IMG/VR virus record: IMGVR_UViG_3300030098_003401
Location: 1-44,857 of that record
Strand: one strand, 5' to 3'
Length of the DNA stretch: 44,857 nt
Source of the DNA: a virus
The notes beneath the pieces were generated by a model. It did no database searches, had not been told where the DNA came from, and saw nothing but the letters and a program-made list of their open reading frames with translations. Of the stretch, positions 7,799-28,387 are shown in pieces (within the stretch, counting starts at the first letter, position 1; the number at the start of each line of letters is the position of its first letter). The position numbers were made by a program, and so were the translations under genes.

Positions 7799-7926
7799 AA
7801 GAAGAGAGCCAATAACTGGTCCTCCCTTCCAAGTACAGAGGTGTAAAAACCAGAAGTCGCTGAAGGGGAAAATAAGTCCCGAAACATAGGAATGAAAGGC
7901 AAAGGAATATGTGAGGCTCTCTTTTT
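7799..7926 (+). ncRNA. Compact multi-helix RNA closed by a terminator-like stem upstream of the alpha-CTD-like gene
   Basis: A 12-bp closing helix pairs AAGAAGAGAGCC (7799-7810) with GGCTCTCTTTTT (7915-7926). Inside are a two-part hairpin (CTGGT/ACCAG at 7816-7820 and 7849-7853, with CCTC/GAGG at 7821-7824 and 7838-7841), a GGGG/TCCC hairpin (7865-7868 and 7877-7880) and ACATA/TATGT (7884-7888 and 7908-7912). Loop bases CCTTC (7825-7829) can also pair with GAAGG (7862-7866) as a pseudoknot. The closing helix ends in a U-run, so it can act as an intrinsic terminator before the gene at 7981, as in attenuators and riboswitches. Regulation by ligand or protein is inference. Confidence 0.6.
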
Positions 7927-7980
7927 AATATTCTGTAGTAAAATACCCAAAAAAACTTGACAATAAATAAGGAGGTAAAT

Positions 7981-9525: not shown

Positions 9526-9771
9526 ATGGCTAATTCAAACCCAGAAATAAACCTATCATCGTATAAGAATGGTAACATATTAACTAAAACATCAGCGTAT
9601 GCAACTTTAGGCGATGTATTAACAGCCGAAGGTATTGCAATGACTGAAGCATCTATTGACATTTATGATGTTAATGGACAGGACAAGCCAGGAAGACCTG
9701 GAACAGTTCTAGCACAAGGTGATACAGTGCAAATAGTTAGAAAGTCTAATAAATCTGGTATTGTAGCGTAA
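9526..9771 (+). CDS. Ubiquitin-like beta-grasp protein (ThiS/MoaD-type), cassette modifier
   Basis: At 81 aa this has the size and pattern of a ThiS/MoaD-like Ubl: a TLGDVLTAEGI helix region (residues 27-37), a strand with ASIDIYDVNG (42-51), then VLAQGDTVQIVRKSNKSG (61-78). The last part matches the 'vLa.GD.V.iv....G' end of the fold. The protein ends SGIVA instead of at Gly, so three residues must be removed to expose G78. The JAB peptidase two genes downstream is the obvious candidate. Followed by E2-like, JAB and E1 genes, it is most likely the conjugated or sulfur-carrying modifier. The family assignment is by pattern; the substrate is unknown. Confidence 0.7.
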   Translation: MANSNPEINLSSYKNGNILTKTSAYATLGDVLTAEGIAMTEASIDIYDVNGQDKPGRPGTVLAQGDTVQIVRKSNKSGIVA

Positions 9772-9836
9772 GACCTAATGAAGCCCAAAGCCAAAGCTAC
9801 TAAGTAGCAGAGCTTAGCGCAAACAGTAGGATTATT

Positions 9837-11429
9837 GTGAGCAATTGGAAAGAGAGAGATGTAAGTCTTGAGGAGAAACTCATCTGGATGGGACAAGAGC
9901 ATTCTCTCTCTTTTCTTAACGATAAGGATAATAAAATGGAATATACATACGAAAATAAGAACAACGATTGGAATGGAAACTTAGAACAACAAGTCTGTAT
10001 GAAAATATCTAAACCATTAGAAACTTTACAAAATGTATTTAATGAAATGAAAAAAGAATACATAAACGAAAGAAATGAATTGACAGATGGTTATATAGAA
10101 GAATATGGAGATGATGGCATAACTATGATGGAAGAACGGTTTCCTAAACCAATTAACATAGATGAGCTGACAAATCAAGCTAAAATAATATCTAAAAAGT
10201 ATGAAATATATGGAACTACAAAATATGGAAGTAAAATTGGATTTTTATTTAAAATACCTAATGTAAGAGTTCGATGTAGAACATATATTAATCTTGGTGA
10301 CTATTATTGTTGGTTTTATAAATGGGGTATGAATGATATGAGAGTAGAAATATATCAAGCATATGAAGACGATAATGGAATAAAAGTGTTCAATTACGGT
10401 CAGTATCAGCATCCTCACATATCAGGGCGTAGTCCTTGCTTAGGTAGCTATGAATCACCTATAAGAAATTGTTCGGGACATTTTAATATAGTAGGCTTAA
10501 TAAACAATGTTAAATCATATTTGAATTCTTACTATGGAAGAAGTGTTTATCAAGCAGGAAGTTACTATAAACCGATAAATATAAGTGTTCCTAACTTAGA
10601 TATGATAGAAACATGGAAAGGTAGAAGTTTTAACTTTAGAAACTACAAAGATTACTATCATAAAGACTTTGCTTATAGACCTGGTGATAAAGAATACAAA
10701 GCACTAATAGAAGAATGGAACAGCAAATTCTTTGACAAAAAACATACAGTAACTATTAGCCCAAATGTATTATGGTATTACTTAAGAAGATATGGTGTTG
10801 GTCAAGCTTATTATGGAGCAGATGCTAACGCAGCTACAAAAACAATGATTGTATTAAAACATTTTAATTTAGACAATTATTGGAAAGCTTTCTGTGTATT
10901 AGCTAAATATCTAAATAATGTAAAGAATCAACCATCAATACTAACTAAGCTTTCAGACACGTATCAAAATATATATGCAAAAATGATACATCATGTAATT
11001 AATTATAAAGAAACAGAATATTACATAGGTTATGGAAGAGGTAGAGTTACACCTGATACAGCTGAATCAGAAATAATGCTGGTAAAGAATGTATCTGAAA
11101 TAAAAGATATTCTTCAACCATCTTCATCTAATGTTTGGGATAGATTTTATCTACAAGGAGCAAATGATTTCTATAAAGAAATTAGCGAATTTAAAACAAT
11201 TGAAGACCTGCATAATCAAAAAGAAGACAGGGAATCAAAAAGAATTGGCAAAGCTCTTAAACTTATAGATGAAACAATTCCTAAATATAAAGAATGGAGA
11301 GATGCATACAGTAGAAAAATAATAATACACCTAGATAAAGAGAAAAGGAGATTAACAAATGGACTTAACAATATCATACAAAATTCAAATGCAAATCAAT
11401 TATCTTTTGAAGCGTTTTCCCGAGACTGA
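9837..11429 (+). CDS. E2-like Ubl-conjugating protein with large unknown extensions
   Basis: The 530-aa protein has a beta-rich core at about residues 95-260. It includes YGQYQHPHISG followed by RSPCLGSYES, which matches the E2 active-site signature (HPxI..G..CL) with H192, P193 and candidate catalytic Cys C201. Bacterial E2 relatives in Ubl operons carry the same HPH...CLG pattern. The helix after it (NIVGLINNVKSYLNSYYG) fits the helix after an E2 active site. The ~90 residues before and ~270 after are not recognised and end in a Lys-rich coiled coil. The start is GTG at 9837 with TAGGAT upstream; internal ATGs at 9888 and 9936 are alternatives. Its 3' end overlaps the JAB gene by 71 bases. 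E2 identity is inferred from motif plus neighbours. Confidence 0.65.
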   Translation: MSNWKERDVSLEEKLIWMGQEHSLSFLNDKDNKMEYTYENKNNDWNGNLEQQVCMKISKPLETLQNVFNEMKKEYINERNELTDGYIEEYGDDGITMMEERFPKPINIDELTNQAKIISKKYEIYGTTKYGSKIGFLFKIPNVRVRCRTYINLGDYYCWFYKWGMNDMRVEIYQAYEDDNGIKVFNYGQYQHPHISGRSPCLGSYESPIRNCSGHFNIVGLINNVKSYLNSYYGRSVYQAGSYYKPINISVPNLDMIETWKGRSFNFRNYKDYYHKDFAYRPGDKEYKALIEEWNSKFFDKKHTVTISPNVLWYYLRRYGVGQAYYGADANAATKTMIVLKHFNLDNYWKAFCVLAKYLNNVKNQPSILTKLSDTYQNIYAKMIHHVINYKETEYYIGYGRGRVTPDTAESEIMLVKNVSEIKDILQPSSSNVWDRFYLQGANDFYKEISEFKTIEDLHNQKEDRESKRIGKALKLIDETIPKYKEWRDAYSRKIIIHLDKEKRRLTNGLNNIIQNSNANQLSFEAFSRD

Positions 11430-12108
11430 ATGGTCAGGACCTGCATGGTATAAACTTAAAGAAGATATATGGAATTTAGTATATTTTAAACCTATAGATT
11501 TAGGTAGTCATAGTGCTACAGAATTTGAAGGCGATGATTTGCTAAAAGTTATGAAAGAAGTTCAAAGTAAGGTACCTATAACAGGATGTCATCAAGGAAT
11601 CATACATTCACATCATGGTATGGGAGCGTTTCACAGCGGAACTGATGATACAGAGCTTAAAGAAGGAGCAAATAGAGTAGGATATCCATCTTTAGTAGTA
11701 GCTCATACAGGAGCGCCCTTTGCTTTTAAATACTCTTATGAAGACCAGTTTGGAAATATTCATTTAGAAAAAGGTAAAGTTAAAGTAGAGCATGCTGAAT
11801 ACGAACCTCATAAAGAATGGATAGAGGAAGCTGATAAAATAGAGAAAGAAGCTAAATCTAAAGCACCTTCGTATGTAACATATAATAGGCATCAAGGTAA
11901 TTTATGGGGAGGAAGCTCACAAAATGTAGCCAGATATGATGGTTGGGGAGCTCTTATAAACCAAGATGAAGTAGAGTATAACACAGAGTATGAAAAAATG
12001 CAGAATGCTAAAGAGTTATACAAAGAAGGTAAAATGTCTAAGAAAAAGTATGAAAAACGTAAAAAGAAATGGGAAGAATATGAATCAAACCATTTTGGAG
12101 TTATATAA
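11359..12108 (+). CDS. JAB/JAMM metallopeptidase (Ubl-processing or deconjugating)
   Basis: This zinc isopeptidase shows a complete JAMM site: E24 in TEWSG, then H83 and H85 in IIHSHHGMG, S93 and D96 in FHSGTDD. That is the HxH-x7-S-x2-D arrangement with the upstream catalytic Glu. The first ~125 residues form the peptidase domain; the rest is charged and ends in a Lys/Glu helix (SKKKYEKRKKKWEEYE). GGAG lies upstream of the ATG inside the end of the E2-like gene. The likely jobs are trimming the three residues after G78 of the Ubl and removing Ubl from targets. The 3' end overlaps the E1 gene (TAATG). Confidence 0.85.
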   Translation: MDLTISYKIQMQINYLLKRFPETEWSGPAWYKLKEDIWNLVYFKPIDLGSHSATEFEGDDLLKVMKEVQSKVPITGCHQGIIHSHHGMGAFHSGTDDTELKEGANRVGYPSLVVAHTGAPFAFKYSYEDQFGNIHLEKGKVKVEHAEYEPHKEWIEEADKIEKEAKSKAPSYVTYNRHQGNLWGGSSQNVARYDGWGALINQDEVEYNTEYEKMQNAKELYKEGKMSKKKYEKRKKKWEEYESNHFGVI

Positions 12109-12851
12109 TGCTTAGATATCTTAGAAATAAAGACCTTATTAATCAATCTTTTCTAGGGGAGGTAACAGTAATAGGGGCTGGTGGAATAGCATCGGCCCTT
12201 GTTACTATATTAGCTCAAATGGGATTTAAAAAGTTTCACATTTGGGATAATGATAAACTGGAAGAACATAACTTGAGTACAACAGCTTATCCTGAGCATC
12301 TTTTAGGTATGTATAAAGTTGAATGTGCTACTGTATCAATAAATCAGTTTAATGAAGAAGCTGATATAACACAGTATGTAAAAAGATGGGAACCAGGAGA
12401 TTATTTATCTAATATAGTATTATTAACTCCAGACAACATGGAAACACGCTTAGATGTACATATGGATTGGAAGCGAAATAAAAATAGAAAAGCTCTAATA
12501 GATATGCGTATGGGTGCGTTAACAATGGAAGTTATTTCAGTAGATAAAGATAATGATATATTTGGAAAAACTTGGAAACCAAGTAACAAAATATCAGATG
12601 AGGCATGTACTGCAAAGCATACAATATTTACTGCAAATGTAGTAGCTGGATTAGGTGCAAGTCAGCTATTTAATGTGTTGCATAATAGGTCTTATTGGCA
12701 GTATATTAGGCAGTCGTTGGCACCTCTTTCCTTCGGAAGAGAGTATCCAATTAATAAAATAAACAATGAGGTAGAAAATGGCGCTAAAGAAAGCGAAAGT
12801 AAAACCAGTGTCAGTAAATCCCAGCATAATGCTATTGTACGGACCACCTAA
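12108..12851 (+). CDS. E1-like / ThiF-MoeB superfamily Ubl-activating enzyme
   Basis: This enzyme adenylates the C-terminus of a Ubl and usually passes it to a Cys. The Rossmann nucleotide site is VTVIGAGGIAS (residues 19-29). The acidic switch and following segment WDNDKLEEHNLS (46-57) match the E1/ThiF pattern D.D..e..NLs. C167 in SDEACTAKHT is the candidate catalytic Cys, followed by the conserved NVVAGLGASQLFNVL helix. At 247 aa it is a minimal E1 without extra domains. The last 74 bases overlap the Sak4-like gene, physically coupling the cassette to the replication genes. Conserved zinc CxxC pairs of MoeB/ThiF are absent. Confidence 0.85.
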   Translation: MLRYLRNKDLINQSFLGEVTVIGAGGIASALVTILAQMGFKKFHIWDNDKLEEHNLSTTAYPEHLLGMYKVECATVSINQFNEEADITQYVKRWEPGDYLSNIVLLTPDNMETRLDVHMDWKRNKNRKALIDMRMGALTMEVISVDKDNDIFGKTWKPSNKISDEACTAKHTIFTANVVAGLGASQLFNVLHNRSYWQYIRQSLAPLSFGREYPINKINNEVENGAKESESKTSVSKSQHNAIVRTT

Positions 12852-13434
12852 GGTCGGCAAAACAACTATGCTAAGCAAACTTAATGATTGCTTGATTATT
12901 GATACAGAAAGTGGAAGTAACATGGTTTCTGGTTACATCCATAAAGTAAACAATAGAAAAGAACTCATAAACCTCGTTAAAGAAGCTAAAGATGGGCACG
13001 AATACAAATACTTTGCTATAGATACTATAGACAAAGTTGTTGATTGGGCTGAAAAAGCAGTCTGTCAAGAGTATGAAGTGCCTTCTATAGCTGATTTATC
13101 GTTTGGTAAGGGTTATGCTCTAGTAAGAGAAAAAGTAATGAATACTATTCATGCGTTTAGAGATTGTGTAGACCATTTAATAATAATAGGCCATAGAAAA
13201 GTGGCAAGAGCAATAGTAGATGGAAAAGCAATTGTAGAACCTGAAAGTTTAGACATTACAGGTAAATTAAAAAATATGATTATGTCTGATTGTGATGCAA
13301 TAGGATATGTTCATAGAGAAGAAGAAAAGCTATTAGTTTCTTTTAAAGCAAATGAGTCAGTAGAAGCTGGCAGCAGATGCGAACACTTAAAAGGAAAAAT
13401 AGTTGATTTTGAATGGAAAAACATATATAAATAG
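12778..13434 (+). CDS. RecA-fold ATPase, Sak4-like (AAA_24) single-strand annealing/recombination protein
   Basis: The 218-aa protein opens with a basic leader and then LLYGPPKVGKTTMLSKL, a Walker A P-loop (GPPKVGKT, about residues 22-29). LIIDTESG and YFAIDTIDKV supply the Walker B-type acids, and HLIIIGHRK is the sensor strand. This order is that of Sak4/AAA_24 phage ATPases, which act with an SSB partner and an exonuclease in phage recombination. An SSB-like gene follows directly, and a RecB-type nuclease is in the same operon. GAGGT precedes the ATG, inside the E1 gene. Confidence 0.75.
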   Translation: MALKKAKVKPVSVNPSIMLLYGPPKVGKTTMLSKLNDCLIIDTESGSNMVSGYIHKVNNRKELINLVKEAKDGHEYKYFAIDTIDKVVDWAEKAVCQEYEVPSIADLSFGKGYALVREKVMNTIHAFRDCVDHLIIIGHRKVARAIVDGKAIVEPESLDITGKLKNMIMSDCDAIGYVHREEEKLLVSFKANESVEAGSRCEHLKGKIVDFEWKNIYK

Positions 13435-13445
13435 GAGAAAGTGCT

Positions 13446-14069
13446 ATGGCAATAATAAAACCAACTTCAAAAGGAAGTTCAGGTGGTGGTAATTTTTATG
13501 GTATATGCGATATCGAAGTCTTAGGATTTAACGATAAAAGCTCAAACTTTGAATGGGCTGACATATACTTAGAGGTTATCGTAAAACAAAAAGGTAGTGA
13601 TTACACAAAAACGATAAGATTAGCTGGTTCTTTAGAAAGGGACCCAGATGGCTCCGTTAAAGGTGGCTCTGTATTGAATAGACTATACCACTTCTTTGAT
13701 GTGCTAGGATGTTCATGCGGAATTAACGCCCAAGGTAAATGGGAAACAGAAGACGGACAACCCATCGATGATATAGCTAAATATCTAACTGATAAACACT
13801 CTATAGGCTTCAATTCAGAACCTACCAATTTTCCATATCTTGCATACGTATATAAGGAAAAGCCTAAACAAGTAGGTGGAAAAGTCTTTACAAGAGTTCA
13901 TCATAAAATAAATGTTAATACTGAGGAAGGTAGAAGAAAGCTTGCAGATGATATTAAATGGTTTAAAGATAAAGGTTTCATAAAAGAAGCATCTTTAGAA
14001 CAATCATCTCATGCATCTAAAGAAGAATTAGATGAAGTTTTCGGAAACGATACTTTAGGTAACATGTAA
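13446..14069 (+). CDS. Putative single-stranded-DNA-binding protein
   Basis: The 207-aa protein has a Gly/Ser-rich start (SSGGGNFYGI), beta-strand-rich middle (ADIYLEVIVKQKGS) and an acidic C-terminal tail (SKEELDEVFGND), like the protein-interaction tails of SSB proteins. It lies between the Sak4-like ATPase and the primase-helicase, the usual place for a phage SSB or DUF669-type partner. No strict OB-fold signature can be proven by eye. AGGAG lies 6 bases before the ATG, and its stop overlaps the primase start. Confidence 0.55.
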   Translation: MAIIKPTSKGSSGGGNFYGICDIEVLGFNDKSSNFEWADIYLEVIVKQKGSDYTKTIRLAGSLERDPDGSVKGGSVLNRLYHFFDVLGCSCGINAQGKWETEDGQPIDDIAKYLTDKHSIGFNSEPTNFPYLAYVYKEKPKQVGGKVFTRVHHKINVNTEEGRRKLADDIKWFKDKGFIKEASLEQSSHASKEELDEVFGNDTLGNM

Positions 14070-15826
14070 TGAACTACATTGAGATAGCACAAGGGAGTCC
14101 GAGAAATCGTGGCTCCCTAATTCTCAAGAAAGACCTATTAAAGTATATTAATCCCAATGTTCCTTTGTTTAGAAGTATTTATCTTTATGATAAAGATGCG
14201 TACAAATATTCAAAAGAAAATGGTGGACTAAAAGATTACTTTGGTAAAAGAGATATAGATAACATAATACTTGATATAGATAAGGGGAAAAGCTCAGATG
14301 AACATACAAGAGAAAAAGCCATTTCAATGGTATACAGACTTGAGGAGTTTGATGTTTCGCACAAGAGCATCCAATGTTATTTTTCAGGTTCTGGATATCA
14401 TATTTCTATACCTAATAGTTGTTTTGGTTTTATATGCAGCGATAATATTCATTATATTGTCAAGAATACAGTAGGAAAACTATTTCCTGAAGTAGACAAT
14501 AGTATATTTATGAGAACTGGTATATACAGAATTGCTCATACAGTAAATAAAAAGACAAATCTATATAAAATACCTATAAGTGTAGGTGAGTTGTTTGATA
14601 AACGTATAGATTTTAATGAATTAGCATCTAAAAGCAGAATAGGATATGCTTACTCTGAAAGAATAGGCAATAACGAAATGCAAAAATACATTGTTAATGA
14701 GGCACCACGAGTAAAACAAGCTAATAAAGTAATAGAACCATTAGATGTAGTACCCTGTGTTCAAAGAATGCTACAAGCTGGACCTCAAGAAGGCAATAGA
14801 AATCAAACATTAATGAGAATTGCATCCCATTGCTCAAGGCATGGAATACCTTCTGAATATGCTAAATCAATGATTTTACATTGGAACAATAACAGTTTAA
14901 ATGAAAATGAAGTCATTGAAAAAGTAGAATACACATATAACAGAGGATATAAATATGGATGTCAAGACTCAATAATGCATGCAAATTGCCAAACTAGATG
15001 TATTTATTTCAAAAGAAAAGACTATTTAGTAGATGTAAAGAATGCAGAACAATTGCAAAAGGATTTAGAATTTAGATTAACAACTGATTTTAGTGGTAAA
15101 ACATTAGACTTGGCTAAATCTTTAGGATTAAATGTAGATTGTGAAATATATCCAGGTGAATTGGTTACTATATTTGGGCCAACAGGCTCAGGAAAGACAA
15201 CTTTTGCTCAAAACTTAGCGTTAGGAGTAGATTTTGTTAATGATGCTATTAATATAGATAGTCAAATACCTTGCTTATATTTATCGCTTGAATTATCAGC
15301 CTGGTATATGCATAGAAGAAACCTACAAATAGTAAGTGGTTTAGATAAGGACCAAGTTACAGAAAACTTTGAAAAAGTATATGCTTTACATAAAGAAAAG
15401 ATAGAGCATTTATCAATACAAACTGTGGCTCCAAATTTAGACCAAATACAGCAAAAAGTAAGAGAATTGCAACCAGCCGTAGTAGTTGTCGACTATATCG
15501 ACTTAATCAGTACAAATTCACGGTATATGGGCGAATATGAGCAAATTAAACAAGTTTCTCATTATCTTTCTAATTTAGCTGTAAACATGGACATAATAAT
15601 AATTCAGATAAGTCAGGTGAGTAGAGATTACAGCCGAAACGAAGCATTAGATTTGTATGCAGGAAAAGGTTCTGGTGCAATAGAGAATGCTAGTCGTAAA
15701 GTAATTGGCTTAAATGGACAAGCAAATGATAGTGTTAAATCTGTTCATATGTATAAGAATACAGATGGTGAGTTATTTGACACAGAAGTTGTTTGGCAGC
15801 CTTCATTTAGATTTAGGAGACAATAA
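14069..15826 (+). CDS. AEP-type primase fused to DnaB-type replicative helicase
   Basis: This 585-aa protein would both prime and unwind DNA at the fork. The N-terminal half has the archaeo-eukaryotic primase motifs: DNIILDIDKG (metal acids D69, D71), FSGSGYHISIP (H111), and RIAHTVNKKTNLYKIP. A PriCT-like helical region with GNRNQTLMRIASH follows, then Cys-containing MHANCQTRC. The C-terminal half is a RecA-fold helicase with Walker A GPTGSGKTT at 370-378, Walker B VVVVDYIDLIS, and the DnaB-like IIQISQVSRD and GSGAIENASRKVIGL arginine/glutamine region. The fusion differs from the TOPRIM-helicase of T7. It starts at the TAATG overlap with the SSB-like gene. No DNA polymerase is encoded nearby. 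Confidence 0.85.
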   Translation: MNYIEIAQGSPRNRGSLILKKDLLKYINPNVPLFRSIYLYDKDAYKYSKENGGLKDYFGKRDIDNIILDIDKGKSSDEHTREKAISMVYRLEEFDVSHKSIQCYFSGSGYHISIPNSCFGFICSDNIHYIVKNTVGKLFPEVDNSIFMRTGIYRIAHTVNKKTNLYKIPISVGELFDKRIDFNELASKSRIGYAYSERIGNNEMQKYIVNEAPRVKQANKVIEPLDVVPCVQRMLQAGPQEGNRNQTLMRIASHCSRHGIPSEYAKSMILHWNNNSLNENEVIEKVEYTYNRGYKYGCQDSIMHANCQTRCIYFKRKDYLVDVKNAEQLQKDLEFRLTTDFSGKTLDLAKSLGLNVDCEIYPGELVTIFGPTGSGKTTFAQNLALGVDFVNDAINIDSQIPCLYLSLELSAWYMHRRNLQIVSGLDKDQVTENFEKVYALHKEKIEHLSIQTVAPNLDQIQQKVRELQPAVVVVDYIDLISTNSRYMGEYEQIKQVSHYLSNLAVNMDIIIIQISQVSRDYSRNEALDLYAGKGSGAIENASRKVIGLNGQANDSVKSVHMYKNTDGELFDTEVVWQPSFRFRRQ

Positions 15827-19012: not shown

Positions 19013-22000
19013 TTAAGGCTGGTATACGCCTTCTTTTCTGACATCTTTAGCCATTCTACTTATACCATACATAGGAAATCCTGAGAATTTATCTATAAGC
19101 ATCATGGGGTTTTCTATTAAATTGTTTTTAGCCCAAGGGGAAAAGTCTTTTATAATCCTACCAAATGGAGCCATTGTATATATATGATAATTAGCAAATC
19201 TATTCCAATCATCAGCTATAAAAGAATCTATTCCTGCTAAAGGTAATCTAAATATAGGTGGAGTAATTACTTGTAATGGAGCTACACTCTTAGGCCATGT
19301 TCCCATAAAAGCTCTATCTCTTTCTTTATCATTTCCAAATATCCAATCTGCTGTATCTTGTATCCAACTCCAAGGAGCTGGTAAAGCTGTTTCAAATATT
19401 GAATACATAAATACATTACCAAGAGCAAATACTAATAAATCAAGCTGCAATGTTCTTTTAAACTTTTCAAATGCTGGAGTACCCTCTTTTAAGCCAAATA
19501 TTTTAGCTTCTCTTCTAACATCGTTTCTAAATCTAACAGCATTCCATTGCCATAATTGAAAACGAGTCATTATTTTACCTAATGCTGTTCTTGCAAATGC
19601 TGGTCTATAAGGTGCAGAGTATAAAAACTGTGTAGCCTGAACACCTTTTTTAGCTTGTTCAATTAAAAATGGATGGTCTACATTCTCTATAGCTCCATCA
19701 AATCTTTTCCAAGCTTGTACATAATGAGCCATAAAAGCATGTCTTCTAAGCATCATTTCTGGTTTAGACATAAATTGAGAAGCTACTTGCATTAGTGATT
19801 TACTTAGTTTGTGTTTATCCATTAAATCAGCTAATTCTCTTCTTCCTATTTTTCCTTCAGATGTCATATTTTTTATAACATCGTTCATAAATTCTTGTTT
19901 ACCTTGAGCTCTTACTTCAGGGTTAATACCCCATTCATGTCGCATAAAATCAGGAACAACACCATGTTTAACGATAAATCTGTTTATATCATCTTTAGTC
20001 TTAAAAATTTCAGGGTCTATTCTTTTTAAATAGTTTAAATCCATTCCTTGCTTCCAATTATTTAACCCAGCACTTTGAATTGTATGCAAACTACCACCAA
20101 ATACGTTACCCACAGCTGATTTAGGATGTGCAAGTAAAGATGCTAATTCAAATTTAGCCTCCATATTTGATATTCTTGTAAGCATTTGGTACGGAACTTC
20201 TTTCATTAATTTATTTAAATTAGGATATTTTGTCTTATCTTGTATCAATTTATCTTTAATAGTTTCAAGTTTTTTCTTAACTCTATTATCAGCCCACCAA
20301 TAATAAGGTGTACCTTTTAATTTCATTCCTGGGTCTTCATATATTCTTTCAGGTATAATAGAAGGATTACCCATAGCATCCTGAGCGTATAGCTTTAAAA
20401 AGTTTTCCCATTTTTGTAATAAAGTAAATTTACTGCCATCTCCAAACTTTTCTTTATGCCAGCCTTTTTTTACAGCTCTTTTATTAAACTGCTGTATAAT
20501 GCTTCTGGTAAATATCTGATTCATTTGATTAAAATATGTATTAGAAACATTTCTAAGGTAAACTTCATAAGATGGATGCTCTATAGAATATCCAGGCATA
20601 TGCACTTCACGAGACATAGCATTACCTAATTTTTGATTAGCATCCCACCATTTTATAGATTCTTGGCTTATTTTTTTCTGTTCTAATATTTCTTGAGCAG
20701 CTCTATCATAGGCATCAAATATTTCTTGTCCAGGCTCAAGCCAATCTCCTGTTAAATTATGAGTTCTATACATAAGTTTTTTCATTTCTTCTTTTTTATC
20801 AGTTTTATTTAAGGTTCCATCTTTAGAAATAGCTTCAAGCTGTCTTTCCATAGCTTTAAATGCTTCTTTTCTACTGTGAAACATATGAGGAAAATATGTA
20901 TTAAACTCCATAGGGTCAGTCTTTCTAAGCGTAGTTTTAGCCAATTTATCCATAACAACTTTATATTGAGGTAGTATTTTATTTGTTTTAGGGTTTCTAG
21001 GTAATAAATCAATCATCATAGACCTAGCTACTTGTCTTAATCCATCAATACCAAAATCAGTAGGTATAGGCTTTCCTTGTTTATATAATTTTGTCATATC
21101 AGAAATAAATTCTTGCCATTTTATTTTAGGCTCAAGGCCTTCTAAATCATAAGTTTCACCTGTTTCATATTTTTTTAAGGCTTCAGGCTTACCCGCAATA
21201 ACTTCAAAAACTTTTTCATTAGATTTAGCATAAACATCTATAATTCTATCTGCTATTTGTTCACCTGTAAGTTTTTCTCTAACTCCTTCAGGTGAAGTGA
21301 TAGAATAAGTTTTACTTAAAGCTAATTGCAAATCCTTATCTTTTAATATTTCTTGATAATCTCTTTCATATTGAGAAGATTTAGCAACTCTTTCTGGTCT
21401 AGATTTATGTTTATTTTGACCTAAAACTTTATATCTTAAAGGTCTTTGCATTTTTCTGACAGCATATTTTCTAAGCAATTCTCCACCAGTTACATTTTCA
21501 ACATAAAAAGATAGCTCTGCATTTATTTTATTTGTTAGGCTTTCTCCTAATTCAGTAGACTTTTCTCCCATTTTACCTATCCAATCTTGTATAGTATCTA
21601 GCCACCATGTAGGTTTTCTAACAGTCCCTTTTTTTAATTCGCCTTTTTCTTTAAAATAACCTTCTTCTTTTAACCATAAAATATCATACTTCATCATTTC
21701 TCTAGTTATAGATTTAGGAAATAACATCCAATATCTTCCTTTCATATCAGGAGCATCTTCAGCAAATAGTTTTTGCCACAAACTACCACTTCTAAAGTCT
21801 TTAAACAGATTATTCATAGCTATATAATCTTGTTTATTCATTTCAACTAAATTCTTTTTAAAGTAATAACGAGTGATTTCGTTTAGATTAATACCTTCTT
21901 TATTATGATAATAGTGTAAGTTTTCAGCTAATTCATGTATAACTTTTATATCTTCTTTTGGAAGTTTGCCTTTAACAGCTCCTTCATATTGTTCAATTTC

Positions 22001-25000
22001 TACTAAATTGTCTTCAATTAATGGGACTTCTTTGCCTTCAAACTCAATAGTTTTTTTATCTAAGGTCTTAGCAGTTTCTATTCTATCGTCAATTACTTTT
22101 TTAGTTTCTTTAAAAGCACTTGATGTTAACTCTGAATATTTTCTTAAAAATTGCGCTATAGAACCTCTTGCAACTGCATCAGATGCAAATCCTAATTTAG
22201 TCATGCTAGTGTTAGCTCCAGCATTACTATACCAATGTTTTAGATTATTATTTTTTATAGCTATTTCTTTAGATTTTTCTTGTCTATTATAAGAACCTAA
22301 TAAAAAGTAGTCAAATAACCGTCTTTCTTGTGCAGTTTTTAATGTTTTTTTATAATTTGATATTGCATTATCAGTAGCAAGTTGGTCCATTTTAGCAGAA
22401 ATTTCACCTTCTACAGGTTTAGCCCCTGCTTCTTTTTGCAATTCACTAACAGCTTCACCTAATTCAGCTATTTCTACATCTTTGCTTGCAGCTTCTTCTT
22501 TAGAATAATGTCTTTCTAAGTCAAGCCTTTCTTTTGCCATTAAATAACTGTTGTTTTTAATTTCGTCAGCTGCTTTATGAATACGCTTTATAACATCGTT
22601 AGTAAATATTCCTTTGTTTTTATTTATATAGCTAGTAATAAGGTCTAAGCTAACCATATCATGCATATCATTTGTTAGTATAAAATCTTCTGCTCTTACT
22701 ATAATTTCATCTAATATTTCTTTCTTTTCTTTTACAGAAATTTTACCTTCTGCTAAATCCTTATTAAATTGTTCAGGAGTATCGTCTTTATGTCTTTTAT
22801 AACCTAATCCTTTCATAAAAGCATTAAATTTAACAGCATCATTAGCTATAGCTTCTCTCCCTACCCATCTTTCATTTTTATAATCATATTCTTTACCTTC
22901 TATATATGCTTTATAAGTTTTATCTAATGCTTTTTTAACATAGATATTTTGCGGAATAGTAAATGTCGCTCTACCCATAACATCAGCTAGCCAATTATTT
23001 TCTTTGTTTATAACATTCATTTTAGAATAAAGTTCAGTTAGCTTATCAAGGTCTATTTTGTTTAATATGTTATCGCTCCATTTACCTGTAGCTTTAAGTA
23101 ATTTAGCTTGTTTACCTTGTATATTATGTATATCTGAATCAGCATAATCTTTAATAAAATCTATTTTACTTCTTATTTCAGACTCTTGCCACATTTTTCC
23201 TTCTTTATAGTTTTTACCATAAAGTGCAGAGTTCATTTCCATATAATTCTTTACAAGACCCCCTCTTAATTTCCATATAGGGTCAGATTGATTTTTATCA
23301 GCCTTAAATAATTTGTAAAATTGGTCTGCATTTTTAGCTACAACTTTGCCCTTTGAATCAGTTACTTTATCTATAGCAAAATAACTGCTATGCAATTCTT
23401 TAAAATAGTCATTATATTTTTTTAAACCACCTGTATCCATAGGGTCTGAACCAAAAGCAGTCATGGATGCAGATAACCGTCTAGCATAATCAAGCCATTC
23501 TTTTTCATTTCTAGCTTTTATAGTAATAGTATATTCAGGATTATCTTTTTGATTGTAGTCAATAAATTTAAATGTATCTACTCCTTTTTTACCAGAAGAT
23601 ATAAGGTCATGTGCGCCTTTCATTGTTTGGGTCATACCTACAATACCACCTAGTTGAGAACGAGCATCCACAACTCTTTCTGAAATTGTTCTTCTTACTG
23701 AAGGAGCATACATCCATACTTGTTCTTTAGCTGCTTTTTTAGCATAACTTTCTTGACCAAGAGTTAATAAATCTTCCATAGTCATATTAGCATGTAAGCC
23801 ATCAGGTCTATTTACCATACCTTTTTTATTATCAGGAATATATTTAGCATATTTATCCTGCTCTTTAGATGCTTTACGTTTTGGAGCCATCTCATCTATT
23901 AATTTTACTAATCTCTCGGCATGATTATCTTTAGCACGAACACCTTTTCGTTTAACAGTATATTTTAAAGTCTTTCCTTGTAACTTTCCAGATTTTAAAT
24001 CTTTTAAAATAGCGTCTCTTTTAGTAGGTAGAAAACCAACATCACCAGTTCCTCTTAACCAAGCTTCATATCTATTTATAGCATCTGGTATACTTTCCGC
24101 TCTAATAAATCCTTGCCTTTTATAATAAGAAGGACTATTATCATACACTTCTGGAATTACAAATGGATTTCCGTATTTAGAACCTCTCATAACAGATATA
24201 CCTGTATCTGCTATTTTAGTTTTAGGCATTCCTAAATTGTCATATTCTTCTCTTGTTAAATACTTGTACTCTCCATTTATCTTGTTTTTGCTAACATACT
24301 GAACATATTCTTCTTTATTAGCAGCAAAAGCATCTTTCCAAGACTTTTTCATTCCCTTACCATTTCCAGCGGCATCTTTACCACCAAAATAAATAAATGC
24401 TTCATCACCATCAAGGTCAGCTCCACCCATAGCTCTCATAGCTCTAGGATGAACAAGTACTCCATGACCATCTCTACCAGTAAAACCTCCAAATTCTAGT
24501 ATTTGAGCACCTGAAACTGAGTCCATAGGAACCCTTATAAGCATAGCTCTAAATATTTCCTGTAATTCTTTTTCTAATCCTTTTCTTTTAGAAGGGTCTT
24601 TAGCATAATTCCAAAGTTCGCCTAAAGTTTTTATTGGCTTACCGTCTTCTCCTTTTACCTCCAAGTGAGTTTCTAAAGGCATTTTTTTATATCTATTGTC
24701 TAAAAAGAAAATATCATCTCTTTTTTGCAGTAAAACTAAATTAGGATTAACATTATCTAAATCTATCATTAAAGCTTTATCATAAGGTCTCATTCTAGCT
24801 GCAGCAGAATTACCTGCTTTAGGTTTAGCAATATGGCTTAGTATATAATTTTTCATAACAGCAACTCTAAAAGGCCTAATCCATTTGTGTGCATAAATAG
24901 GAGAAGTTTGTACATCTTTTTTCTTAGCTATACTAACACCTACATCTATCAATCTATCAGTTATTGTATTAAAATCATCTATTTCTTGCATATATTCTGA

Positions 25001-28000
25001 TAAATCATCTTCTTTAGTTCCATTTTCTTTAGCTTCTGATACAGCTATTTCTTTATTTAATTTTAATAATCTTTGATAAGCTGCATCTGCAAAAGAACTT
25101 CCTTCGCTAGAGTTTACAACTTCAAGTAACTTGTTAATTCCAATTTTTTCTATATTATTTAAAAGTTTAGCTTCCTTACTTGTAGTAGGATTAGCCATAT
25201 AATCTGTTAAGGCATCATTCCATTTCTTTTCGCCTATATAAGATTTATATATTGTTTCACTAAATACATCTTCTATTATTTCATTTGGTATAGGTTTATA
25301 TGCTGTCCTTGAAGATAAAGCACTAAACATTTGTTTGGGTATTCTAGCTAAATGTTTAACCATATTGTTGTTATTTTTTACACTATAATTATATTTTATA
25401 TGAGAAGGGTTTAAAGAATAAACAGGTGAATTAAGAGATAATTCTTTTTTATTTAACGTATAACTACCAATTTTCCTTCCACCTATTTGTTTAGCAGAAG
25501 ATTCATGAATAATATAATGAATACCATTCTTTTCCATAAAATTACTTAATTTATCTCCTGCCTTGTGAAACATAAATTTGCCATATAAAGCTCCTAAATT
25601 AGCATCTGGAGATACTATAAATGCTTTATTTTGACCTGATGATACATGGCCTGCATCTTTATTATTATAGTCTATAGCTTTATTAGTACCTATGATAGCA
25701 CCATCAACTATCTCATTATAAAGTTTTGCTTCAAATTCTAGTAGTTTTTCTCCATGAGGAGCTAAATCATCAATATCTTTAATAACTATATACTTAAATG
25801 TATTTTCTGTGCCTTTTATATCTTTACCTTTAGAATTTTTTAAAGGTTGTGTAAAAATTTTATCACTAGCAAGTTGTGCATTAGCAAACTTTTGACTTCC
25901 ACTCCATGAAGGGGTAAATAATATTTGCAATCTTTTATTATATGCTAGTGCATTATCAAGATATCCTTTACTCCACAGTTTTCTTAGATTAGAACCTGTG
26001 TAAGTAAAGCCATTCATACCCATATCGTATAACACATTAGATAAAAATCCTTTATCAAATTCTTTGCCTGCATTTTTCAACTTAGGATATTGTTTTTTAA
26101 ACTCTTCTTTTGCTTCTCTATAAAGTTCTCTTTTACTACTTAATAAAGACCTTAGGGTAGGTTGTAATTTAGAAGCTTTATTTACCATAGGATGATGTTT
26201 AACAAAGATAAGTTTATCAGCATCACCTCTACCACCAAACAAATAAAAGTTTTTCTTTTTCATAAACTCTACAATATTTTGCATAACCATATTATATGCA
26301 TCCATATTATCTCTTCTTAGGTCTGATAATTTCATATCTTTAAATTGACCTGTTTTAGATTTAGTGCTTATATGGTCTACAAAAACAAGTTGTCCTAATT
26401 CTTTATCTGGAGAACCTCCTTCTTTTAAAAATACTTCTTCAATAATTTTAATAGGTTCCACATTTTTCTTTCTTACACCACTAACAGTCATAGGCCTACT
26501 AACATCCATACTTTGAACAAACGCTTTAGCTGGAGTAGTAGTTCCTGATTCTGGGTCATAAGTTTTAGGAACATAATTAATTCTTACAAAATTAGTCTGA
26601 ATGCCTTTATTTGCTCGTGTTATCCATTGCCTAAGGTTACCCCTTGCTTCTTCATTTAATGGCGTTTTAAAGCGTTTTTGAAGCTCTTCAGCTAATTTCT
26701 CTGTTTCAACTGTTTTACCTGGCTTAATATACTTGCTTAATATACCTGAAAGTTCTTTACTTATTACTGTTTTTAAATCAGCTTGTAAAGAATATGGCAA
26801 ATCATCAAGCTTCCAAGATTTAGATAAATACTTTTCAGCAAATTGCAATGCTCTATGTCCAACTATAGGCTCAGAAGTACTCATGCCTACATCTATATCA
26901 TTACTATCTTCTACTTCAGTTTCTTTGCTTACTTTATTTAACTTAATGCCTTTTGTAGCGGCAATTATTTCTTCTCGTATTTTATTATTAGTAATAGCTT
27001 GATTTGTTAATTTTGCTATTTGGTCTGAAGCATAAGTATATCCAATTGTTTCTTCACCTGTTTCTTTTAATATGCGCTCTTCTTTATCAAATTGTTTTTG
27101 TAAAGTAGATAGCTTCTTTTGGTTTTCTGCAATATCAATATCAATTTGTTTTAATTTTTCAGTAATCCTATCTACTGCAGGTTCTACTTTTACACCTTCT
27201 TCTGTAACTTCTGTTTTTTGTTCTTTTTTGCGAGTTAATACTTCTGTTTCTATTTCTTTAAGCTTTTTAAAAGACTCAGGAGTAACTTCACCAGTAATTT
27301 TATCTTTTAACTTATAACCGTAAGCTTCTAATGCTTCTATTAAATCGTAAGCTCTCTCAGCTCTTTGTTCTGTAGAGCCAAATGTTTTAAAGATATCTTT
27401 TTCAACTTGTGTCTTAACTTCAGGTTCTAAATTTGACCACTTTTTACCCATTAATTCTGGGCGTAATGTGTATTCTAATTCAGCATTATTAGGTAGTTCT
27501 TTTTGAAAAGATTTCATAAACTCAGCTGAACGCTGTTTATACCAAGGTCTTTCGTTTCCACCAAAATAAGCACCTAATAAATATTCGTAGACTTGTTCTG
27601 CACTAGTAGCACCTCTCATTGTAGCTGGTAATCCTTGGAATACAGAACCAGCAATAGCTCTTGCTACTTTATCTGCTTTAACATCTCCTGTGTTTATTAC
27701 ATTACCTAAACCTCTAAATACTCCACCAAATATAGCACCATGAAAAGCGCTATGCATTACAGCATCTACTCCTCCTTGCCAGGCAGATATACCGCTAGCA
27801 ACACCAAGATTAAATGCACCTTCAGAGATATGTTTAACAGGTCCTTTAGTTAGAAAATCAGCAGCTACTTGTGTTGCTCCAGCCCTACCTTTAGCTGCGG
27901 TATCTAAAGCAGGACCTACTACTTTTGATGCTCTTTTAGTAATTTTTTCTGATAGATATAATGGAACAGATTTAACTTTTGCTACTTTAGAGGCTAACCC

Positions 28001-28387
28001 AGTTAAACCAAAAGCTTTTAAAGGTGTAGCCATTATTCCAGGAGCAAATCCTGCTAAATGCCCTAAACTTCTTGCTATATTTTCATATTCATTATCTGGA
28101 TGGTCACCTGTTTCTAGTGTAGTAAACCCACTTGCAAATCCTTTACCAAACTGCATAATAGCTTCACCAAAACTAAAATCGCCTTCATAAAAAGGCACTT
28201 GATGATACTGAGAATGCATTTTAATACTCTCTACTTGTTGTTGAGAATATAAATTAGGATTTGCTTTATAAGCATTTGCTAAACTACGGGTTTGTAATTT
28301 GTTAAATTGAGGTATAAATTGTTGTGTTGCTTCAGCGTTTACCTGATTTTCTATGCCAGCGACAGTTTGAGTTGGGTTAATTTGCAT
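19013..28387 (-). CDS. Giant virion-type protein with two-barrel RNA polymerase core and DUF4326-like insert
   Basis: At 3124 aa this is a fifth of the window. Its centre has the beta-prime double-psi barrel signature: RVP at 1285-1287, then VLVHPRAMRAMGGADLDGDE with H1313, P1314 and metal-binding D1324, D1326, D1328. This matches the 'HP...aNADFDGDqM' site of cellular RNA polymerases. About 400 residues earlier a candidate first barrel has DGAIIG (D895), KFMFHKAG (K937, K942) and ESSAKQ (K966). A DUF4326-like domain follows at 1400-1500 (SKYGNPF ... INRYEAWL ... LQGKTL). VVDARSQLGGIVG (from ~1572) could be bridge-helix related. The N-terminus (FGKGFASGFTTL) and C-terminus (TRFQLWQWNAV, then hydrophobic helices) resemble large ejected virion proteins. 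It ends the structural operon. The likely role is a packaged polymerase transcribing early genes, as in crAss-like phages. Confidence 0.75.
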   Translation of the reverse strand: MQINPTQTVAGIENQVNAEATQQFIPQFNKLQTRSLANAYKANPNLYSQQQVESIKMHSQYHQVPFYEGDFSFGEAIMQFGKGFASGFTTLETGDHPDNEYENIARSLGHLAGFAPGIMATPLKAFGLTGLASKVAKVKSVPLYLSEKITKRASKVVGPALDTAAKGRAGATQVAADFLTKGPVKHISEGAFNLGVASGISAWQGGVDAVMHSAFHGAIFGGVFRGLGNVINTGDVKADKVARAIAGSVFQGLPATMRGATSAEQVYEYLLGAYFGGNERPWYKQRSAEFMKSFQKELPNNAELEYTLRPELMGKKWSNLEPEVKTQVEKDIFKTFGSTEQRAERAYDLIEALEAYGYKLKDKITGEVTPESFKKLKEIETEVLTRKKEQKTEVTEEGVKVEPAVDRITEKLKQIDIDIAENQKKLSTLQKQFDKEERILKETGEETIGYTYASDQIAKLTNQAITNNKIREEIIAATKGIKLNKVSKETEVEDSNDIDVGMSTSEPIVGHRALQFAEKYLSKSWKLDDLPYSLQADLKTVISKELSGILSKYIKPGKTVETEKLAEELQKRFKTPLNEEARGNLRQWITRANKGIQTNFVRINYVPKTYDPESGTTTPAKAFVQSMDVSRPMTVSGVRKKNVEPIKIIEEVFLKEGGSPDKELGQLVFVDHISTKSKTGQFKDMKLSDLRRDNMDAYNMVMQNIVEFMKKKNFYLFGGRGDADKLIFVKHHPMVNKASKLQPTLRSLLSSKRELYREAKEEFKKQYPKLKNAGKEFDKGFLSNVLYDMGMNGFTYTGSNLRKLWSKGYLDNALAYNKRLQILFTPSWSGSQKFANAQLASDKIFTQPLKNSKGKDIKGTENTFKYIVIKDIDDLAPHGEKLLEFEAKLYNEIVDGAIIGTNKAIDYNNKDAGHVSSGQNKAFIVSPDANLGALYGKFMFHKAGDKLSNFMEKNGIHYIIHESSAKQIGGRKIGSYTLNKKELSLNSPVYSLNPSHIKYNYSVKNNNNMVKHLARIPKQMFSALSSRTAYKPIPNEIIEDVFSETIYKSYIGEKKWNDALTDYMANPTTSKEAKLLNNIEKIGINKLLEVVNSSEGSSFADAAYQRLLKLNKEIAVSEAKENGTKEDDLSEYMQEIDDFNTITDRLIDVGVSIAKKKDVQTSPIYAHKWIRPFRVAVMKNYILSHIAKPKAGNSAAARMRPYDKALMIDLDNVNPNLVLLQKRDDIFFLDNRYKKMPLETHLEVKGEDGKPIKTLGELWNYAKDPSKRKGLEKELQEIFRAMLIRVPMDSVSGAQILEFGGFTGRDGHGVLVHPRAMRAMGGADLDGDEAFIYFGGKDAAGNGKGMKKSWKDAFAANKEEYVQYVSKNKINGEYKYLTREEYDNLGMPKTKIADTGISVMRGSKYGNPFVIPEVYDNSPSYYKRQGFIRAESIPDAINRYEAWLRGTGDVGFLPTKRDAILKDLKSGKLQGKTLKYTVKRKGVRAKDNHAERLVKLIDEMAPKRKASKEQDKYAKYIPDNKKGMVNRPDGLHANMTMEDLLTLGQESYAKKAAKEQVWMYAPSVRRTISERVVDARSQLGGIVGMTQTMKGAHDLISSGKKGVDTFKFIDYNQKDNPEYTITIKARNEKEWLDYARRLSASMTAFGSDPMDTGGLKKYNDYFKELHSSYFAIDKVTDSKGKVVAKNADQFYKLFKADKNQSDPIWKLRGGLVKNYMEMNSALYGKNYKEGKMWQESEIRSKIDFIKDYADSDIHNIQGKQAKLLKATGKWSDNILNKIDLDKLTELYSKMNVINKENNWLADVMGRATFTIPQNIYVKKALDKTYKAYIEGKEYDYKNERWVGREAIANDAVKFNAFMKGLGYKRHKDDTPEQFNKDLAEGKISVKEKKEILDEIIVRAEDFILTNDMHDMVSLDLITSYINKNKGIFTNDVIKRIHKAADEIKNNSYLMAKERLDLERHYSKEEAASKDVEIAELGEAVSELQKEAGAKPVEGEISAKMDQLATDNAISNYKKTLKTAQERRLFDYFLLGSYNRQEKSKEIAIKNNNLKHWYSNAGANTSMTKLGFASDAVARGSIAQFLRKYSELTSSAFKETKKVIDDRIETAKTLDKKTIEFEGKEVPLIEDNLVEIEQYEGAVKGKLPKEDIKVIHELAENLHYYHNKEGINLNEITRYYFKKNLVEMNKQDYIAMNNLFKDFRSGSLWQKLFAEDAPDMKGRYWMLFPKSITREMMKYDILWLKEEGYFKEKGELKKGTVRKPTWWLDTIQDWIGKMGEKSTELGESLTNKINAELSFYVENVTGGELLRKYAVRKMQRPLRYKVLGQNKHKSRPERVAKSSQYERDYQEILKDKDLQLALSKTYSITSPEGVREKLTGEQIADRIIDVYAKSNEKVFEVIAGKPEALKKYETGETYDLEGLEPKIKWQEFISDMTKLYKQGKPIPTDFGIDGLRQVARSMMIDLLPRNPKTNKILPQYKVVMDKLAKTTLRKTDPMEFNTYFPHMFHSRKEAFKAMERQLEAISKDGTLNKTDKKEEMKKLMYRTHNLTGDWLEPGQEIFDAYDRAAQEILEQKKISQESIKWWDANQKLGNAMSREVHMPGYSIEHPSYEVYLRNVSNTYFNQMNQIFTRSIIQQFNKRAVKKGWHKEKFGDGSKFTLLQKWENFLKLYAQDAMGNPSIIPERIYEDPGMKLKGTPYYWWADNRVKKKLETIKDKLIQDKTKYPNLNKLMKEVPYQMLTRISNMEAKFELASLLAHPKSAVGNVFGGSLHTIQSAGLNNWKQGMDLNYLKRIDPEIFKTKDDINRFIVKHGVVPDFMRHEWGINPEVRAQGKQEFMNDVIKNMTSEGKIGRRELADLMDKHKLSKSLMQVASQFMSKPEMMLRRHAFMAHYVQAWKRFDGAIENVDHPFLIEQAKKGVQATQFLYSAPYRPAFARTALGKIMTRFQLWQWNAVRFRNDVRREAKIFGLKEGTPAFEKFKRTLQLDLLVFALGNVFMYSIFETALPAPWSWIQDTADWIFGNDKERDRAFMGTWPKSVAPLQVITPPIFRLPLAGIDSFIADDWNRFANYHIYTMAPFGRIIKDFSPWAKNNLIENPMMLIDKFSGFPMYGISRMAKDVRKEGVYQP
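19015..19037. terminator. Weak bidirectional terminator candidate at the convergent junction
   Basis: AAGGC (19015-19019) and GCCTT (19028-19032) form a 5-bp stem with an 8-nt loop. CTTTTC follows on the plus strand and AATTTC on the minus strand. It lies inside the last codons of the giant gene. The stem is short, so the call is tentative. Confidence 0.3.

Follow-up and report, generated by a model that had tools for sequence, protein, structure and literature searches.

Ubiquitin-like protein (Ubl) conjugation in bacteria has so far been described mainly from defence operons and from operons of plasmids and other mobile elements. Bil and Bub operons encode a Ubl, an E2, a JAB-type peptidase and an E1 together; the Bil modifier is ISG15-like, with two beta-grasp domains, and its conjugation interferes with phage assembly. 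Both systems are immune pathways of bacterial hosts (PMC13373217). Prokaryotic operons holding Ubl, E1, E2 and JAB genes in one cluster, including the set in row 6d of their survey, were reported by Iyer et al. 2006 (PMC1779556). TAPI and TAPK of phages lambda and T1 combine Ubl-like and JAB domains in a tail module without E1 or E2 (PMC1779556). Here we describe a phage-borne Ubl-conjugation cassette in IMG/VR virus record IMGVR_UViG_3300030098_003401, the whole 44,857 bases of which form the window analysed. The original prediction for this locus was of four consecutive open reading frames (ORFs) encoding a Ubl, an E2-like protein, a JAB peptidase and an E1, and all four were found in place:

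9526..9771, + strand: Ubl, an 81-residue protein with a predicted beta-grasp fold (AlphaFold2 model, Foldseek matches to ubiquitin and SUMO, invariant Gly78, ratio of non-synonymous to synonymous change (pN/pS) of 0.12)
9936..11429, + strand (listed ORF from GTG 9837): E2-like protein, with a UBC-like core around H192/H194/C201, a helical C-terminal region and the tail NQLSFEAF (motif invariance, hhalign to canonical E2s, secondary-structure order of the AlphaFold2 model)
11359..12108, + strand: JAB/JAMM isopeptidase with a full E-HxH-S-D site (Prok-JAB match, invariant site residues, CSN5 by profile)
12108..12851, + strand: E1-like enzyme of the ThiF family, with a nucleotide site and catalytic Cys167 (ThiF match, UBA5 by profile, invariant residues)

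Support for the cassette as one genetic unit is good, and extends by inference to its Ubl-conjugation chemistry. The E2-like and JAB reading frames share 71 nucleotides, and the 3' end of the E1 gene shares 74 nucleotides with the start of a Sak4-like ATPase gene.

A scan of IMG/VR with the E1 returned 14 close relatives, which keep the order Ubl, E2, JAB, E1, Sak4-like, SSB-like (single-stranded-DNA-binding protein), primase-helicase wherever the contig is long enough. Their identity to the window is 90-96% for Ubl, 79-86% for E1, 63-69% for JAB and 36-42% for the E2-like protein. A profile scan widened the set to 272 relatives, and 80 of these were retained. They divide into two further marine groups, the second with E1 identity near 50% and the third near 30% ('marine' being inferred from IMG contig names), together with crAss-like contigs and contigs of 170-180 kb. 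Among GenBank phages, tblastn of the E1 retrieved the Fpv phages of the fish pathogen Flavobacterium psychrophilum and gut crAss-like phages of the Crassvirales (Steigviridae/Asinivirinae). The gene order Ubl-E2-JAB-E1 is repeated in crAss-like phages, Fpv phages and the 170-180 kb contigs, and is not peculiar to the phage of the window. The proposal of a complete cassette within a phage replication block is supported. GenBank labels of the crAss-like and Fpv genes extend only to a 'metalloprotease' domain and 'ThiF'.

Linkage was counted over 102 distinct E1 loci, leaving out L023 and L024, which are ThiF/MoeB genes with no cassette seen. JAB adjoins E1 in all 81 testable loci, and the E2 slot holds a long ORF in 61 of 62, L094 being the sole locus without an E2. 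In 55/61 loci the E2 slot is preceded by a short ORF whose product has a C-terminal Gly; the six exceptions mostly encode Ubls that carry long extensions (crAss-like L080 and L085; L029 and L093). Of 43 related marine loci with at least 3 kb upstream of the helicase, 41 have the cassette directly upstream of the Sak4-like, SSB-like and primase-helicase genes. Chance assembly of the four genes is excluded, because the four-gene unit is conserved in dozens of distinct loci. The unit also disappears whole: L104 and L106 lack the entire set, so the cassette is gained or lost as a block. A DUF932 gene (2e-12) stands in its place (L104 3626-4420; L106 59-853; L102 63-857), and L102 and L103 resemble L104 and L106. 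These cassette-less relatives provide a natural comparison for cassette function. The expectation that relatives would carry the four genes as a unit is borne out, the departures being L094, without its E2, and L104 and L106, without the set.

A host-encoded origin was considered and rejected: a one-pattern scan of low sensitivity met no E1 relative in 84,980 species genomes, and the plasmid search returned generic partial ThiF/MoeB matches only.

The E1 matched ThiF at 2.4e-19, and its best solved relatives by profile were UBA5 structures (5e-18); Cap2 structures were also matched, and Citrobacter BubCD only weakly. Residues G23, G25, D47, D49, N55, K70, D109, R114 and C167 are invariant in 17/17 proteins. 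The JAB protein matched Prok-JAB at 5.9e-5, just below the cut-off, and its profile search matched CSN5. Its residues E24, H83, S84, H85, S93 and D96 are invariant in all 14 proteins compared, which represent three phage lineages. The active-site residues originally named for both enzymes (E24, H83, H85, S93 and D96; D47/D49 and C167) are all among these. As a separate observation, pS across E1 positions 12108-12770 is 0.29, about half the 0.55-0.62 of Sak4, JAB and E2; no obvious overlapping gene lies in that stretch, and a windowed profile revealed no single block.

In family searches the Ubl gave a weak match to Ub-Mut7C (E 0.0025), below the cut-off. Its AlphaFold2 model (mean predicted local distance difference test score, pLDDT, 86.8) has the beta-beta-alpha-beta-beta order of a beta-grasp and a low-confidence tail. 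The best Foldseek matches of the model were Ubl, SUMO, ubiquitin and MTH1743 structures (E 7e-4 to 7e-3). The beta-grasp fold suggested for the 81-residue protein is thus supported by prediction. The protein ends in KSNKSG followed by IVA, i.e. one C-terminal glycine, Gly78, and a three-residue tail with no GG end. Gly78 is kept in 33 of 33 Ubls, with tails of 0-11 residues in that set. Some Ubls stop at this glycine (KVGG, KSNKSG), others add one residue (K, R, N or I) or IVA, and others carry long extensions. The corresponding product in crAss-like and Fpv phages, encoded just ahead of the E2-like gene, is ThiS-like from its N-terminus to a K-x-x-SG motif, beyond which it runs on for well over 100 residues. 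An invariant glycine with a variable tail would be expected of a peptidase-processed modifier; JAB would be the obvious candidate for the peptidase, and the predicted mature C-terminus is Gly78.

For the E2-like protein, the listed ORF (9837-11429) is present as described, but its start is probably later. Relatives begin MEYTF or MDY at the position matching ATG 9936 (M34), so translation more likely starts there, giving 497 residues; residue numbers here count from GTG 9837. H192, P193, H194, C201 and G203 are invariant in 30/30 E2-like proteins, with HPH upstream of C201 in all. In the third marine group HPH is lost and the Cys is kept in 27 of 27, and the crAss-like and Fpv proteins read HSH...C-G. 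Alignment of the core to four canonical human E2s by hhalign paired HPHIS-GxPCLG with HPNI..GxICLD at a modest P of 4.9e-4, a score reached by 0/60 column shuffles and by no unrelated alignment. Sequence searches of the PDB using E2 alignments retrieved no E2. The AlphaFold2 model (pLDDT 80.2) has a helix at 108-121, strands at 123-130, 133-147, 149-163 and 167-173, a loop with H192/H194/C201, helices at 203-214 and 218-229, and a mostly helical C-terminal part. This predicted order fits that expected for UBC. Motif, context and the modest profile match are the grounds for calling the protein E2-like, and its UBC fold is putative. In two relatives (L076 4100-5227; L069 3932-5242) the E2-like proteins have Cys-rich C-terminal regions with a zinc-binding look. 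These are possibly RING-like or treble-clef-like; neither gave a Pfam match.

The genes differ in evolutionary rate, purifying selection being strong on the Ubl and weak on the E2-like protein. In the group to which the window belongs, pN/pS rises from 0.12 (Ubl) through 0.16 (Sak4), 0.29 (E1) and 0.31 (JAB) to 0.57 (E2-like protein). The pN of the E2-like protein reaches 0.42-0.50 in the C-terminal half versus 0.17-0.20 near the active site. A modifier that has to fit several enzymes would look like the slow Ubl, and a changing substrate or partner surface like the fast half of the E2.

We propose, with moderate confidence, that the cassette is a reversible Ubl-conjugation module belonging to the replication and recombination block of the phage. 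In this scheme JAB would trim the Ubl after Gly78, as the invariant glycine and hypervariable tail suggest. The E1, with its complete active site, would adenylate Gly78 and form a thioester on Cys167, from which the Ubl would be handed to Cys201 of the E2-like protein. The fast-evolving C-terminal region of the latter may direct the Ubl onto lysines of phage or host replication or recombination proteins, a step proposed from gene position, and JAB would take it off again. A role in replication is the best reading of the cassette and rests on position; the original suggestion that replication proteins are controlled is favoured as far as position goes. Several points weigh against the proposal. 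Position next to replication genes is circumstantial, and no E3 or target was identified. The cassette is not indispensable, being gone from L104 and L106 though their helicase is 79-82% identical. Family searches with the E2-like protein, Pfam E2 families included, gave no match. The UBC fold expected around C201 is consistent with the order of the model and with the hhalign pairing, but Foldseek of this fairly confident model against the PDB matched no UBC protein.

Other readings were weighed against the same evidence. The Ubl might serve counter-defence or host takeover, its attachment inactivating host defence, transcription or replication proteins. An arms race, or a turnover of partners, would account for the fast-changing C-terminal region of the E2, loss of the cassette as a unit in close relatives agrees with this, and co-expression with early replication genes is plausible from gene order. 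Conversely, the tie to the replication block, seen in 41/43 loci and with a similar setting in unrelated phage groups, is tighter than is usual for anti-defence genes, and neither a defence target nor an accessory island is visible. We regard takeover as possible but rather unlikely, and the specific idea that host defence proteins are tagged gained no support of its own. The cassette might instead act against competing phages or mobile elements in the manner of Bil; it would then draw on the same four activities as Bil/Bub-type operons, which serve immunity (PMC13373217). Here the cassette sits in a core replication module and not in an accessory locus, its Ubl has one domain, and the Ubl, E2-like and JAB proteins are unmatched in PADLOC; we consider such interference improbable.

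The likeness of Ubl and E1 to ThiS/ThiF-type families raises a different prospect, in which the E1 would activate the Ubl as a sulfur carrier of the ThiS/MoaD kind, serving the modification of nucleotides, tRNA or cofactors, and the E2-like protein would be a sulfur-using enzyme. This we strongly doubt: the E2-like gene and JAB are nearly always there, genes for a sulfurtransferase or radical enzyme are not regular neighbours, and predicted mature Ubls often end in a single Gly (SG) and not in GG.

Within the replication proposal, one route to a target may be considered. Q-x-x-L-F or QL-x-F, which resembles the consensus of bacterial sliding-clamp-binding motifs, is present at the C-terminus of 20 of 31 HPH-type E2-like proteins. 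Among 469 non-redundant ORF C-termini, 16 carried a Q..[LM]F tail, all 16 of them on E2-like proteins, a specificity confounded by overlap in that the tail lies over the JAB start and its L-F is in part dictated by the JAB frame. The clamp idea is partly rescued by codon choice at the Q. That codon demands that the JAB codon end in C, as it does in 23/23 motif-bearing loci (related loci, not 23 independent events) against a background of 23-26%. The JAB residue at this site varies (D, N, S, I), and these changes point to several independent events. The tail has no counterpart in the L107 group or in the group at 30% identity. No DNA polymerase or clamp was identified among window ORFs of at least 497 residues, and the host clamp would therefore be the partner. 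The conserved tail suggests, without proving, sliding-clamp docking. That the E2-like protein docks on the host beta clamp through Q-x-x-L-F/QLSF and conjugates Ubl to fork proteins is a tentative idea, which we think will more probably prove wrong than right. If true, fork tagging would be a viral counterpart of PCNA ubiquitination or SUMOylation.

Immediately downstream of the cassette lie three genes:

12778..13434, + strand: Sak4-like single-stranded-DNA-annealing ATPase (phrog_124 at 1.6e-34; linkage)
13446..14069, + strand: conserved protein in the position of an SSB-like gene, its putative identity being drawn from conservation beside the cassette; family searches gave no significant match
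14069..15826, + strand: primase-DnaB-type helicase fusion (DnaB_C at 6.7e-18, phrog_19 at 1.6e-33, phrog_16345 primase at 9.4e-17)

In crAss-like and Fpv phages the cassette neighbours are primase, uracil-DNA glycosylase and exonuclease genes. The Sak4-like gene is far more distant in most of the second marine group (L029-L066; about 1e-8 to 1e-17, the match elsewhere being 1e-100 or better), while the cassette is retained along with the SSB-like gene and the helicase. There a single recombination gene may have been exchanged with the cassette undisturbed. Elsewhere in the window, a 3,124-residue ORF (19013-28387, - strand) has a weak PLxRFG polyvalent-protein match; its predicted product is likely a large injected or polyvalent protein.

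A conserved structured RNA of about 75-150 nucleotides was also observed (window 7799-7932, + strand), with copies at L005 3313-3396, L006 1582-1678, L086 1707-1816, L107 2396-2485, L068 4936-5010, L161 3718-3797 and others. A viral scan found at least 119 copies, at least 111 of them with both halves, often between Ubl and E2 or between E1 and Sak4. The ends are nearly invariant (5' GAGAGCCAAYAACUGGUCCU, 3' AGGCAAAGGAAUAUGUGAGGCUCUC). The closing stem has compensatory changes in 9 of 18 pairs, the window copy folds with a z-score of -3.4, and comparison with Rfam gave no match. Just before the likely E2 start, window 9850-9912 forms a hairpin with a GAGAGAGA/UCUCUCUC stem and a U run (z-score -2.1). 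Its outer stem is similar to that of the structured RNA, and the core of that RNA is absent.

A complete cascade in several unrelated phage groups would mean that bacterial viruses use protein tagging themselves, and such tagging may be a common part of phage life. The cultivable crAss-like and Flavobacterium phages carry the cassette, which makes a direct test possible, and the cassette may show what guides target choice in a minimal E1-E2-JAB system that has no obvious E3.

Among the systems introduced at the outset, the row 6d set is presumably of the PRTRC type. Membership of the phage cassette in PRTRC was rejected on NCBIfam scores (PRTRC_A 11.6 bits against a cut-off of 101.8; PRTRC_ThiF 27.7 bits against a cut-off of 144.75) and on the placement of the E2 histidine. 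Row 6d E2s lack an upstream His and have a conserved His downstream of the Cys instead (PMC1779556), whereas the phage HPH lies upstream. The helical partner protein of the row 6d operon was not recognised in the cassette, and the setting is a phage replication block. The likeness to the operons of Iyer et al. 2006 lies in the clustering of a standalone small Ubl with JAB, E1-like and E2-like genes.

Unlike the Bil modifier, the phage Ubl is a single beta-grasp domain of 81 residues by prediction. Unlike Bil and Bub, the genes are phage-borne, E1 and JAB are separate, and the E2-like protein, of about 500 residues, has its own C-terminal region. PADLOC matches were confined to the E1 domain. 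The comparison originally drawn with Bil and PRTRC holds as a general similarity and no further, and membership in Bil is unsupported. TAPI and TAPK resemble the cassette in being phage-encoded Ubl-like and JAB domains, but here all four components lie in the replication module. Like the phage cassette, CBASS Cap2/Cap3 pair a JAB peptidase with E1-type transfer chemistry of the Ubl-like kind. Cap2, however, is an E1-E2 fusion that conjugates the CD-NTase, whereas the phage E1 and E2-like proteins are separate ORFs with a dedicated Ubl, and no CD-NTase was noticed among the families searched or the ORFs examined; membership in type II CBASS was rejected. We found no published description of a full phage cassette, in a search outside of which much subscription literature lay, so that absence from the literature is unproven. 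The crAss-like and Fpv sets have gene order and invariant residues in common with the window at 20-25% E1 identity. The known systems are near in their parts but not in their setting, and the cassette is one that has gone unrecognised in phages already sequenced.

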